Source: an uncultured Anaeroplasmataceae bacterium (GTDB lineage Bacteria; Bacillota_I; Bacilli_A; Acholeplasmatales; Anaeroplasmataceae). Taken from it: 64,000 nt of DNA. The notes beneath the pieces were generated by a model that saw only the letters and a list, made by a program, of their open reading frames with translations, searched no databases and was not told where the DNA came from. The translations under genes and the position numbers were made by a program. The stretch is taken from assembly GCA_949840955.1 (NCBI GenBank), contig CATKXV010000001.1:124001-188000 (forward strand), in the 5' to 3' direction. This document shows positions 39,938-47,232 of this stretch, in pieces. Numbering within the stretch: position 1 is the first letter of the stretch; each line of letters opens with the position of its first letter.

Positions 39938-40026
39938 TATCGACACCTTTTTATTTTATAGTTTATTTACTATACACAAGTTAAGTTAATCTACTTTTTC
40001 TTTTTAGCAGAATGATAATAAGAGAA

Positions 40027-40054
40027 TTGACAAATACTAGAAATGGCGTATAAT
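40027..40054 (+). promoter_or_regulatory. Promoter of the nadE operon
   Basis: TTGACA (40027-40032), 16-bp spacer, TATAAT (40049-40054). It overlaps the in-frame ATG at 40043, so translation must start later, at 40079, behind GGAGGTG (40067-40073). Confidence 0.85.
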
Positions 40055-40078
40055 TATAGTAAAGATGGAGGTGTTTCT

Positions 40079-41992
40079 ATGCTAAAAAAATATGGATATG
40101 TGCGTGTAGGAGCTGCTGTAAACAAGCTGAAGATTGCTGATATTACCTATAATGTAGAAGAAATGAAAAGAATATTAGATGAGGCTATAGACAAAGGAAT
40201 AGAAATTCTAACCTTTCCTGAGCTTTCTATAGCAGGATATACCTGTCAGGATTTATTTTTAAATGATGATTTATTGAGAGCTACTTTAGAGGGGCTAGAG
40301 GAGTTAAAGGAGTATAGCAAGAAGCACTCTATTGTTTTTATTGTTGGAGCACCTTTAAAAATTGGGAATGTACTTTACAATTGTGCTGTAAGCTTTTCTG
40401 AAGGGAAGATTATTGGTGTTACACCAAAAACCTATATTCCTAACTATAATGAATTTTATGAGGCAAGATACTTCGCTTCAGCAGCGCATTTAAAGGTAAC
40501 CTCCTTTTCGCTTTTAGGAGAAGAGGTTCAGGTATCAAATCTTTTATTATATCATGCAGTTGGCTATGAGGATATTTGCTATGCGATTGATATATGTGAG
40601 GATCTATGGGCAACCAATTCGCCAAGCAATATGGCTAGTGTATCAGGAGCAACTATGATTTTTAATTTATCCAGTAGTAATGAGCTTGTTGGAAAATGTA
40701 AGTACAGAAGATCCTTAATCCAATCTCAATCAGCAAAAACAATGACTGCCTATATTTATGCATCCAGTGGTTTATCAGAATCGACAAGTGACCTTGTATT
40801 TTCAGGTCATGCTATGATTGCAGAGCCATCAGGAGAGGTAAAGGAAAACCAAAGATTTTCCTTTGAATCCACTATCATCTATCAGGATGTGGATATTTTC
40901 AGAATTGCTCATGATCGAAAAATAAGACCTACTACAGAAGGAGCCTTAGCTTTGGTTCAGCCGATTCATACCTTTTTTTCCTTGAATCTGCAAAAAAATA
41001 GCCTATCTAAGAAATATACCCCAACTCCATTTGTTACGCAGGATATTGAGGCCTTAGAGGAAATTTTAAATCTTCAAACCTATGGTCTTGCGAAGAGAAT
41101 CAAGCATTTAGGAAATGCAAAAATGGTTATAGGAATTAGTGGAGGCGCTGATTCAACTTTAGCTTTTTTAATCTGTTTAAGAGTAGCTAAGGTATTAGGA
41201 CTTCCTTCCTCTAATATCCATGCGATTACAATGCCTGGCTTTGGGACAAGTGGTAGAACCTATCAAAATGCAGTACAGCTGATTCAAACCGCAGAGGCTA
41301 CTTTTAAAGAAATTTCAATTAAAGAAGCGTGCCTTCAACACTATAAGGATATTGACCATGATCCAAAGCAGCTTGATGTGACTTATGAGAATGCTCAGGC
41401 AAGAGAACGTACCCAAATCCTATTTGACTATGCCAACAAGGTAAATGGTATCGTTATTGGTACTGGAGATTTATCAGAAATCGCCTTAGGCTGGGATACC
41501 TATAATGGAGATCATATGTCTAGCTATGCTGTGAATGCTTCTATTCCTAAAACCTTGGTTACAGCGCTAATCGCTAAGGTAAGAGATGATAGTGAGGAGG
41601 GGGTATTTAAAAATACTTTATCTGATATTTTGGATACTCCAATTTCTCCAGAGCTATTACCACCATCTGTAGATGGAAAAATTACGCAAAAGAGTGAAGC
41701 TAGTGTTGGACCATATATGATACAGGATTTCTTTTTATATCACTTTATGCGCTATGGTGCTAGTATAAAGAAGCTTTATTTTCTAGCCTGCCAAACCTTT
41801 GCGTATCCAAAAGAAGAAATTAAAAAATACCTAACCACGTTTATCAAGCGTTTCTTTACACAGCAATTCAAAAGAAACTGTATGCCAGATGGGGTTAAGG
41901 TGGGTACGATTAGCCTATCTCCAAGAGGTGATTTAAGAATGAGCTCTGATACCTCCTATAATCTGTACATAAAGGAATTAGAAGAATTATGA
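40079..41992 (+). CDS. nadE: Glutamine-dependent NAD+ synthetase
   Basis: The protein has 637 residues from ATG 40079. The N-terminal nitrilase-type glutaminase domain (about 5-290) has the triad in FPELSIAGY (Glu), the Lys region after TPKTYIPNYNE, and DICEDLW (Cys). The C-terminal synthetase (about 320-637) has the PP-loop GISGGADSTLA. It amidates deamido-NAD using glutamine. It overlaps the NadD-fusion gene by 4 bp (ATGA), so the last two NAD steps are made from one transcript. Confidence 0.96.
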   Translation: MLKKYGYVRVGAAVNKLKIADITYNVEEMKRILDEAIDKGIEILTFPELSIAGYTCQDLFLNDDLLRATLEGLEELKEYSKKHSIVFIVGAPLKIGNVLYNCAVSFSEGKIIGVTPKTYIPNYNEFYEARYFASAAHLKVTSFSLLGEEVQVSNLLLYHAVGYEDICYAIDICEDLWATNSPSNMASVSGATMIFNLSSSNELVGKCKYRRSLIQSQSAKTMTAYIYASSGLSESTSDLVFSGHAMIAEPSGEVKENQRFSFESTIIYQDVDIFRIAHDRKIRPTTEGALALVQPIHTFFSLNLQKNSLSKKYTPTPFVTQDIEALEEILNLQTYGLAKRIKHLGNAKMVIGISGGADSTLAFLICLRVAKVLGLPSSNIHAITMPGFGTSGRTYQNAVQLIQTAEATFKEISIKEACLQHYKDIDHDPKQLDVTYENAQARERTQILFDYANKVNGIVIGTGDLSEIALGWDTYNGDHMSSYAVNASIPKTLVTALIAKVRDDSEEGVFKNTLSDILDTPISPELLPPSVDGKITQKSEASVGPYMIQDFFLYHFMRYGASIKKLYFLACQTFAYPKEEIKKYLTTFIKRFFTQQFKRNCMPDGVKVGTISLSPRGDLRMSSDTSYNLYIKELEEL

Positions 41993-43407
41993 AAATAGGA
42001 GTTTATGGTGGATCCTTTAATCCCTGTCATTTAGTTCATAAGCAAATTGTTTTAAATTTATTAGAAAATTATGCCTTTGATCGTATCGTTTTATTACCTA
42101 CAGGAAATTTTTATAAGAAGAGTAATTTAGCAAAGGGAGAAGAACGTATCCATATGCTAAATTTAATGTTTGAAAATCATCCTAGGGTTATTCTTTGTGA
42201 TTATGAATTTAAAAACAATTTAATATGTACATATCGTAGCTTAGATTATTTACAAAATCTTTATAAGGGAGATGAGCTTTACTTTATTATGGGAAGTGAC
42301 AATCTCCTTCATTTTGATACGTGGAAACGATATGAATACATTTTAGACACCTACAATTTATTTGTTATTGTTCGTAAGGATATTGAATTAAAGGGCGTAT
42401 TAGAAAAATATCAAAATCATAAAGGAAAAATTGAACTAGTTGATATAGAAGTAGAAGGCGTTAACTCTTCATATATAAGAGCGTGTGTAAGTAAAAATAA
42501 CTATGATGAGATATCCCATATTTTAGATTCAAATGTTTTAAAGTATATTCAAGAAAGAAGAATCTATACCAAGGATTACCAAGAATATCGAGAGGTCAAA
42601 TACACCTCTGATGAAGAGTTTTTAAAGAACTATAATAGTGATGACTATGAGAAGATGAGTATTACTACAGATATTACTTTATTTAGTGTAAGTGATATTG
42701 AAGCCACGAGCTACCGTAAAAAAAATGGGAAAAGCTTTAGTATTCTTTTAGTGGAAAGGGAATCTGCTCCTTTTATGAACTGGTATTGTATTCCAGGAGG
42801 TTTTCTTTCTTTAGATGAAAAGCTTTTAGATTCAGCAAAAAGAATCCTTTTTACAGAGGCGAATATAGATGATGTCTATTTAAATCAGTTTCATACATTT
42901 TCTGATATTGATAGAGATGTTCGAGGAAGAGTTCTTTCCGTAGGCTTCTTAGGTCTAATTGATAAGACTAAAATATTAAATGATTTAAAGCCTAAGGCTA
43001 GCTTCTTTGATTTAACTGTAAATCAAAATAAGGACATTTTAACTATTGTATTTAAGAACGCCTCCAAGGAGTTCTGTTGTAAAGTAAGAAAAACAATAAA
43101 TCCTTATGGAATTATTAGCTTTCAGGAAGTAGAAAATGAATATTTAGCCTTTGATCATTTAAAGATTATTGTAACAGCTTTAGAGTATTTAAAAGCACAA
43201 ATACAAATAGAGGATATTATCTATCATATGTTACCTGATGAATTTACTTTAAAAGAACTTCAAATGGTCTATGAAGCAATCTTAGGGAAAAAGCTTATAG
43301 ACTCAGCATTTCGAAGGACTCTTAAGGATAAAATTATTCCAACAGAAAAATTTAAAAATGATGGTGGCCACTGTCCATCAAGATTATATAAATATAAAGC
43401 TGAGTAG
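41989..43407 (+). CDS. nadD: NadD-type adenylyltransferase fused to an NrtR-like Nudix/winged-helix module
   Basis: The protein has 472 residues. Residues about 1-195 are a nucleotidyltransferase: GGSFNPCHLVHKQ, where the HxGH motif reads HLVH, and NSSYIR in place of ISSTxIR. They match nicotinate-nucleotide adenylyltransferase. Residues about 225-395 are a Nudix fold whose box is degenerate: G271, E277 and R285 are kept, but the following positions read ILFTEANI, so only Glu290 of the REUxEE core remains. Residues about 400-472 form a winged helix with EFTLKELQMVYEAILGKKL, typical of NrtR. NrtR regulators sense ADP-ribose with an inactive Nudix domain. A joint enzyme-regulator is inferred. 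Confidence 0.88.
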   Translation: MKIGVYGGSFNPCHLVHKQIVLNLLENYAFDRIVLLPTGNFYKKSNLAKGEERIHMLNLMFENHPRVILCDYEFKNNLICTYRSLDYLQNLYKGDELYFIMGSDNLLHFDTWKRYEYILDTYNLFVIVRKDIELKGVLEKYQNHKGKIELVDIEVEGVNSSYIRACVSKNNYDEISHILDSNVLKYIQERRIYTKDYQEYREVKYTSDEEFLKNYNSDDYEKMSITTDITLFSVSDIEATSYRKKNGKSFSILLVERESAPFMNWYCIPGGFLSLDEKLLDSAKRILFTEANIDDVYLNQFHTFSDIDRDVRGRVLSVGFLGLIDKTKILNDLKPKASFFDLTVNQNKDILTIVFKNASKEFCCKVRKTINPYGIISFQEVENEYLAFDHLKIIVTALEYLKAQIQIEDIIYHMLPDEFTLKELQMVYEAILGKKLIDSAFRRTLKDKIIPTEKFKNDGGHCPSRLYKYKAE

Positions 43408-45635: not shown

Positions 45636-46232
45636 ATGAGTAACATAAAAACTCTTATATTAGAAAGAATAAAAGAAAACGAATTTGCTGCATTTACGAG
45701 TTCTGATTTTCAAGATATTGCGAAATATAAATCTGTTAGTAAAGCTTTAGAAAGCTTAGAAGATGAAGGTAAAATAAGAAGAGCAAGAAGAGGTGTATAT
45801 TATCTTCCAGTCTATAACGATTTTCTTTGTTTTGAGGAAGCGCCAAATATAGATGGTATTGCAAAAGCCATAGCTAGACAATATAACTGGATAATTGTCC
45901 CTTCAGGAAATTATGCCTTAAATATTTTAGGATTGTCTACGCAGGTTCCAAACGCATACACATACATTTCAAATGGTCCATATAACGAATACGATATTCA
46001 TGGGAATGTGATTTATTTTAAGCATACTACATCTAGATTAGTTTCCATATTGCCCTATAAGGTATTGATAGTAATTCAAGCCTTAAAGACATTGGGAAGT
46101 GAAAATGTTAATGAAGCAATATTGATTAAAATAAAATCATTTTTAGATTCAGATGATAAAAAAAGCATAATGTCTAACAAATCCAAAATTACATCATGGA
46201 TTTATGATATTCTAAGAAAGGTATGTGAATGA
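45636..46232 (+). CDS. abiEi: AbiEi-family antitoxin/transcriptional autoregulator (DUF6088-like)
   Basis: The protein has 198 residues from ATG 45636; GTG 45624 in frame is less likely because it leaves no room for an SD. The N-terminal winged helix (about 1-60) has FTSSDFQDIAKYKSVSKALESL and the basic RRARRGVYYLP wing. The C-terminal domain (70-198) contains RQYNWIIVPSG and resembles DUF6088 proteins. In type IV systems AbiEi counters the toxin without forming a complex and represses its own operon. It overlaps or abuts the toxin gene. Confidence 0.85.
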   Translation: MSNIKTLILERIKENEFAAFTSSDFQDIAKYKSVSKALESLEDEGKIRRARRGVYYLPVYNDFLCFEEAPNIDGIAKAIARQYNWIIVPSGNYALNILGLSTQVPNAYTYISNGPYNEYDIHGNVIYFKHTTSRLVSILPYKVLIVIQALKTLGSENVNEAILIKIKSFLDSDDKKSIMSNKSKITSWIYDILRKVCE

Positions 46233-46233
46233 T

Positions 46234-47232
46234 ATGTATACTATTGCAAAATTAGATGAAAGAAATAGAGATGCTATTTTTACTAAATATGCTTATGATA
46301 GTAAATTAAATAAAGCGATTGTTGAAAAGGACTTTTGGGTAACGCTTATATTGGACTATTTATTTCACAAATCACAGTATAAGGAATACTTTATATTTAA
46401 GGGCGGAACTAGTCTATCCAAATGCTTTCATTTAATTCAGAGATTTTCCGAAGATATAGACTTGATTCTTAAGTGGAATATATTAACGGATGATGATCCT
46501 AACAAGGAAAGAAGCAATCGACAACAAGACATGTATAATAAAAATATCAATTTATTAGCTCAGAGTTTCATCAAAGAAAAACTTGTACCTGCTATGGTTC
46601 TTGATTTTCATGATATCAATAAGGATATAAAAATCGTCATAGATGAAAATGATGGTCAAATTGTTAATCTATATTATCCACGTTTATATGATCCAACTGA
46701 GGCTGGTATTTTAAAATATATAAGACTAGAAATTGGACCATTGGCAGCATTATCTCCTACGGATAATATAGAAATCTCTCCTATGATTTCTGAGATGAAA
46801 CTGCCAATAATGAATCAATTTAACACAAAGGTAGAAACTGTTTTACCTCAAAGAACATTTTGGGAAAAGATTTTGATATTACATCAAGAGTCACATAGAC
46901 CAATGGATAAAAAAACTCCTAAAAGATATTCAAGACATTATTTTGACATTGTTAAAATAAGTATGTCCAAATATAAAGATATTGCTTATAACGATTTGAT
47001 GCTTCTAACTAATGTTAGGGAATTTAAGAAAAAGTTTTATCCTGTGGGGTGGGCTCAATATGATTTAGCTAAACCTGGTACCTTTAAGCTTGTACCAAGT
47101 AAGGAAAGGATAAAAGAATTATCACTAGATTTTTTAGAGATGAAAGAAATGCTAAATAATAATGAATTTGAAGCGTTTGAAGAATTAATAGATAAAATAA
47201 AGTTAATTGAAAAAGAAATTAATTCTCTATAA
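46234..47232 (+). CDS. abiEii: AbiEii-family nucleotidyltransferase toxin
   Basis: The protein has 332 residues from ATG 46234; GTG 46225 is an alternative that overlaps the antitoxin stop. The polymerase-beta-like nucleotidyltransferase core shows FKGGTSLSKCF and RFSEDIDLIL (the GS and DxD motifs), an upstream EKDFWVTLILDYLF helix and a downstream FWEKILILHQE helix of the AbiEii/AbiGii family. Related toxins add nucleotides to tRNA and stop growth on phage infection. A C-terminal helical tail (about 295-332) completes it. Confidence 0.9.
   Translation: MYTIAKLDERNRDAIFTKYAYDSKLNKAIVEKDFWVTLILDYLFHKSQYKEYFIFKGGTSLSKCFHLIQRFSEDIDLILKWNILTDDDPNKERSNRQQDMYNKNINLLAQSFIKEKLVPAMVLDFHDINKDIKIVIDENDGQIVNLYYPRLYDPTEAGILKYIRLEIGPLAALSPTDNIEISPMISEMKLPIMNQFNTKVETVLPQRTFWEKILILHQESHRPMDKKTPKRYSRHYFDIVKISMSKYKDIAYNDLMLLTNVREFKKKFYPVGWAQYDLAKPGTFKLVPSKERIKELSLDFLEMKEMLNNNEFEAFEELIDKIKLIEKEINSL

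Follow-up and report, generated by a model that had tools for sequence, protein, structure and literature searches.

A NadD adenylyltransferase fused to an NrtR-type regulator behind nadE in Anaeroplasmataceae: a probable enzyme-repressor of its own NAD operon

Few enzymes also act as repressors of the pathway they belong to, and NadR is the textbook case for NAD. In Salmonella, this protein combines a repressor with an NMN adenylyltransferase (PMC7221760). Other described systems offer the same kinds of parts in different arrangements. The NrtR regulators (S. oneidensis 3gz5/3gz6, M. smegmatis, S. sobrinus) carry a degenerate Nudix domain and a winged helix of their own type, while NadM-Nudix proteins (2qjo, 2r5w) have an adenylyltransferase followed by a Nudix domain. 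We describe here a gene found in a stretch of 64,000 nucleotides from an uncultured Anaeroplasmataceae bacterium (further referred to as the window), in which a NadD enzyme and an NrtR-type regulator are encoded in one frame.

Similarly to Salmonella NadR, whose repression depends on NAD, the fusion joins an adenylyltransferase of the NAD pathway to a presumed repressor of NAD genes; it differs in that the enzyme belongs to the NadD family, the DNA-binding domain is a C-terminal NrtR wing, and there is no kinase, with neither a NadR-type ribosylnicotinamide kinase nor an N-terminal HTH matched in it by Pfam or NCBIfam. With NrtR it shares the degenerate Nudix domain and winged helix, the location in an operon of NAD genes and a palindromic promoter site (a candidate one in our case), and it may keep most of the ADP-ribose contacts too, but only the fusion has NadD at its N-terminus. 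The domain order recalls NadM-Nudix, in which, however, the enzyme is NadM rather than NadD, the Nudix domain is an active ADP-ribose pyrophosphatase and the winged helix is missing; the PRK05379 models give the fusion at most 33.2 bits, over the Nudix part only. For the NrtR half, Foldseek and phmmer both rank Bacteroides AraR (5bs6, 5deq) first, although AraR has L-arabinose as a ligand, serves sugar genes and has no enzyme domain. The 361-position nicotinate-nucleotide adenylyltransferase model PRK07152 (NF005519), which we take to be the Mollicute NadD-HD fusion, also unites NadD with a second domain; it scores 124.2 bits against a cut-off of 315, and only model positions 1-188 of 361 align, so the NadD part alone corresponds and the second domain is not common to both. 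The fusion resembles Salmonella NadR in kind and NrtR and NadM-Nudix in parts, lacks the defining features of NadR and of NadM-Nudix, and is an invention independent of NadR. No NadD-NrtR fusion was known to the first-pass annotation of this DNA, and we found none described in the open-access literature, in a search that fell short of two primary NrtR papers.

Table 1. Features of the nadE-nadD:nrtR locus and of related loci (window positions, except in the last row, where positions are those of the named loci).
Feature	Position	Strand	Basis
Candidate operator TTAGCA-GAA-TGATAA	40004..40018	+	conserved in relatives; motif scan
-35 box TTGACA	40027..40032	+	sequence; alignment with relatives
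-10 box TATAAT, 16-nt spacer	40049..40054	+	sequence; alignment with relatives
nadE, glutamine-dependent NAD synthase (CN_hydrolase + NAD_synthase)	40079..41992	+	NF002730, 782.7 bits
Fused nadD-nrtR gene, 472 aa	41989..43407	+	stop-free translation, Pfam, NCBIfam, AlphaFold2, Foldseek
NadD (NaMN adenylyltransferase) domain, residues 1-195	41989..42573	+	TIGR00482, 120.3 bits; Foldseek TMt <=0.90
HxGH motif read as HLVH, residues 14-17	42028..42039	+	translation; HLMH/HLAH/HKMH variants in relatives
Nudix-like ligand domain, residues 207-390	42607..43158	+	Pfam, PDB sequence matches, ADP-ribose contact mapping
Degenerate Nudix box, residues 271-293, GFLSLDEKLLDSAKRILFTEANI	42799..42867	+	translation; unfused relatives with the same losses
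NrtR-type winged helix, residues 391-472	43159..43404	+	PF21906, E 1.8e-15
Codon TGT, Cys462	43372..43374	+	Arg in 21/21 other aligned copies
NadB-NadC single ORF	L194 6620-8962; L196 6578-8923; L197 6152-8494; L198 8582-10921		

The first-pass annotation had read one frame as NadD, a Nudix domain with a degenerate box and an NrtR winged helix, placed directly behind nadE, and our analysis bears this out (Table 1). The stop codon TGA of nadE shares letters with the start of the fusion in an ATGA overlap. Three Pfam families match above their cut-offs, namely CTP_transf_like at residues 5-164 (E 9e-16), NUDIX at 247-329 (E 1e-6) and NrtR_WHD at 412-468 (E 2e-15), and the NadD model TIGR00482 exceeds its cut-off of 112.45 bits (122.5 in a second scoring). 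By sequence, residues 2-195 match NadD enzymes in the PDB, while residues 206-470 match AraR, the MutT/nudix protein 2fml of E. faecalis and SoNrtR. The AlphaFold2 model is confident and two-part (mean pLDDT 87.6, pTM 0.74), and in Foldseek, the halves being separate, the NadD half compares with NadD structures at TMt 0.84-0.90 and the NrtR half with NrtR/AraR structures at 0.65-0.72. The NadD, Nudix and winged-helix parts all evolve at dN/dS of 0.03-0.15. A separate NrtR has no evident internal start: where standalone copies begin there is no Met, nor is there one ahead of Met223. The NrtR model NF050029 (cut-off 400) gives 111.5 bits to the fusion and 156.2 bits to a standalone relative, and by this score the fusion falls outside the equivalog and within the wider NrtR family only.

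A survey of related genomes for the same architecture, as the first-pass annotation had advised, returned 15 further named loci with an intact fused frame, whose identity ranges from 51 to 92%, and two more cut by contig ends. All of them belong to Anaeroplasmataceae or Acholeplasmatales-type MAGs, some labelled Anaeroplasma; several carry source labels of rumen, reticulum, rectum and other gut samples, and the closest (92%) is a MAG labelled Anaeroplasma bactoclasticum, which makes it probable that the window comes from Anaeroplasma or a near relative. No stop or frameshift between residues 195 and 225, which would have spoken against a fusion, was seen, and all fused relatives have an open frame over the linker. 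Within a set of 60 related genomes, stop-free fused frames occurred in the genus of the window and in two genomes from a second genus of its family. Of 395 genomes drawn from the class, 52 had a match to the NrtR profile, and frames of fusion length (390-483 aa) were confined to the window's family, with about 325 aa as the upper limit for all the rest; among 392 genomes drawn from the phylum, no fused form appeared outside the family. Genomes G414, G389, G177, G293 and others of family f14 have, besides the NrtR of the NAD operon, shorter NrtR-like paralogues of about 220-265 aa.

In more distant Bacilli nadD and nrtR are separate genes within NAD operons, and these relatives do carry the winged helix, contrary to the case that might have undermined the first reading. 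Their clusters vary in content and include pncA, pncB, a Nudix hydrolase, nadE, PRPP synthase, pncC and nadK, all of these names being backed by NCBIfam except pncA, which had no match and rests on sequence resemblance. Longer matches in L095, L097 and L098, which might be taken for an inserted domain, are actually separate nadD, pncC and nrtR genes. Judging from gene order, separate nadD and nrtR in one NAD operon represent the state before fusion. The fused copies form one clade both in the tree of the NrtR part (100/100) and in that of the NadD part (100/97); because of this, and because the genes are separate neighbours in more distant Bacilli, the fusion most likely arose once, by a joining of adjacent genes of an existing NAD operon.

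The HLVH motif had led the first-pass annotation to ask for a test of catalysis, a doubt that sequence comparison largely removes. The third residue is V, M, A or G in the fusion and its fused relatives (HLMH in nine fused copies, HLAH in three, and also HIVH and NLGH), and standalone NadDs linked to nrtR have HKMH, HLSH or HKAH at this place. Residue H17, together with S160, I163, R164, G102, D104 and W112, is invariant in nine aligned fused proteins, and the active-site motifs (H/T)xxH, ISSTxIR-like and GxDN..W are present. Since HLVH is one of several third-position variants and H17 is invariant in the fused set, the catalytic doubt is weak, and the motif appears to be a habit of the clade and not decay. 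The genome has four CTP_transf_like matches, and the three other than the fusion are read, from sequence and neighbours, as CoaD, RibF and TmcAL; the fusion is therefore the sole NadD found in the genome. As the sole NaMN adenylyltransferase found, in a genome with de novo nadB, nadC and nadA, the NadD half is very probably catalytically active.

In fused genomes nadC is present, flanked by nadB and nadA, and no pncB occurred in those searched, therefore de novo NaMN must go through the fused NadD. A family member that lacks the fusion, G025, has a NadM-like gene directly before nadE (L195 2546-4978). In three others, G004, G021 and G033, neither NadD nor a full-length NadE nor a confident NadC was found, and they are probable scavengers of NAD or NMN. 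In sister genera the operon continues behind the fusion with nadA and a nadBC gene; in the genus of the window, nadBCA lie at a separate locus. In a sister genus NadB and NadC are encoded in one frame of about 780 aa, an aspartate oxidase-quinolinate phosphoribosyltransferase fusion. The nadB operon of the window's genus is without the nadE-type operator motif and has a different conserved palindrome in its promoter, TTTAATAGTTTTACTATTAAGG (L189-L193, L199), altered in the window's own genome (L188), which makes a second NAD regulator likely in this genus. Elsewhere in the window, at 45636-47232, a DUF6088/AbiEi-like gene is followed by an AbiEii toxin-like gene, as in a toxin-antitoxin pair of AbiE type.

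The Nudix box of the fusion reads G271-x5-E-x7-R-I-L-F-T-E-A-N-I and is without two canonical Glu residues and without Gly, the signature being changed from RE to RI, from EE to TE and from G to N. Other NrtR proteins also have a box without the Glu needed by active hydrolases (PMC4666351, PMC6800001). When the six ADP-ribose contacts of S. oneidensis NrtR (PMC4666351) were mapped on the fusion through a phmmer alignment, four were the same or conservatively replaced (Y215, Y220, R257, R312) and two were changed (N43 to S259, K76 to E290). Residues of the base-reading helix are unlike those of BtAraR, which is to be expected, since DNA motifs vary within the NrtR family (PMC4666351).

A candidate operator lies just ahead of the nadE promoter. 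A block of 32 bp, 40001-40032 (TTTTTAGCAGAATGATAATAA...), is kept in seven members of the genus, while the DNA further upstream of nadE is unrelated, and the operator within it is identical in 7/7 members examined. All 16 fused loci have the palindrome TTANCA-N3-TGNTAA just upstream of the -35 of nadE, and in each of them the form TTANCA-N3-TGATAA begins 20-23 nt upstream of it. In unfused loci, TTAACA-N3-TGTTAA and near forms stand in 1-3 copies directly before the first NAD gene. A looser motif, partly fixed after those loci had been viewed, was found in 10/10 scored promoters, which are those with a clear operon start, where 1.6 kb held 17 sites, compared with 4 in the 101 kb outside them; the shuffled control gave a mean of 0.15 and a maximum of 3. 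The strict fused form was found upstream of NAD genes of unfused loci in L231, L232, L235 and L242 only, with one further site in about 206 kb, and the window has it once, at 40004. A scan of the genome with one mismatch allowed lacked selectivity (76 forward and reverse matches, compared with 49 in backward controls), and the other exact match in the genome, in L047, is inside an ABC transporter gene. The operator is unlike the M. smegmatis NrtR palindrome GTTTTCGA-N7-TCGAAAAC (PMC6800001). A perfect palindrome upstream of nadE, TATAGT-TTATTT-ACTATA (39957-39974), is absent from relatives and was rejected as the operator. With a matching DNA site ahead of the operon, the enzyme probably controls its own genes, and the self-control of the nadE operon suggested by the first-pass annotation gains from a palindrome that falls within the stretch proposed there for binding assays (39940-40078), is conserved, and recurs before NAD operons with a separate nrtR.

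We propose, as the probable explanation, that an active NadD carries an NrtR repressor of its own nadE-nadD:nrtR operon, which is released by a NAD-derived ligand. The steps that we infer would run as follows. The NadD half would make NaAD from NaMN and ATP; NadE, translated along with it, would then turn NaAD into NAD. The NrtR half would sit as a dimer on TTANCA-N3-TGNTAA, adjoining the -35 of the nadE promoter, and repress the operon, which in sister genera would also include nadA-nadBC. A NAD-derived ligand, most likely ADP-ribose, would occupy the dead Nudix pocket, the winged helices would rotate, the protein would come off DNA and the pathway would be turned on.

Within this explanation the fusion may serve stoichiometry only, with an active NadD and a repressing NrtR whose halves are not linked by ligand or enzyme state, and here we lean neither for nor against. 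Separate genes work in unfused relatives and the linker is less confident in the AlphaFold2 model (pLDDT about 70), but its sequence is conserved and under purifying selection, and the fusion is retained clade-wide. A single-chain switch, where NadD turnover (occupancy by NaMN, ATP or NaAD) and the NrtR ligand would jointly set DNA binding, is in our opinion a tentative idea, with the chances rather against it.

It would be unlikely that the NrtR half has given up DNA binding to become an allosteric or scaffold domain that binds ADP-ribose or NAD and tunes the NadD half, though some observations lean that way. The window copy has Cys462 at the equivalent of BtAraR wing Arg205, a minor-groove DNA contact (PMC4666351), and the codon is TGT, where the five nearest relatives have CGT or CGC; the three positions at which this copy departs from near-invariant columns are all in the winged helix, and the operator of fused loci does not cover the -10. 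Against such a loss, the winged helix is under purifying selection, every other copy has Arg462 and the operator is the same in all the genus members compared. Cys462 may possibly mean that DNA binding is lost or weakened in the source genome, or may be a sequencing variant.

We give an equally small chance to a reading in which the NrtR half activates the nadE promoter, or regulates it in both directions, instead of repressing it. In each of the 16 fused loci the operator has its centre some 15 nt upstream of the -35, where an activator could sit, but the promoter, TTGACA-16-TATAAT, is near consensus and should need little help. The NAD-related NrtR proteins studied so far are repressors (PMC4666351, PMC6800001), and some unfused loci, L096 and L101 among them, have the site across the -10, a placement that looks repressor-like. 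An assembly artefact or a read-through across two genes, which might be thought of as the relatives are all MAGs, is hardly credible, being ruled out by independent assemblies, made from different animals, that share this open frame at identities of 51-92%.

Returning to the enzyme-repressor that we prefer, the idea would have arisen for NAD in this family from other parts, within one clade. Since one can still see the gene order that preceded the fusion, as well as the operator and how it has drifted, the system offers a tractable test of what the joining of an enzyme to a regulator does to control. The finding also gives a clear annotation fix for Anaeroplasma-type genomes. If the single-chain switch is true, the enzyme would read its own flux and adjust its operon accordingly, and a NAD enzyme-repressor would have evolved independently of NadR.
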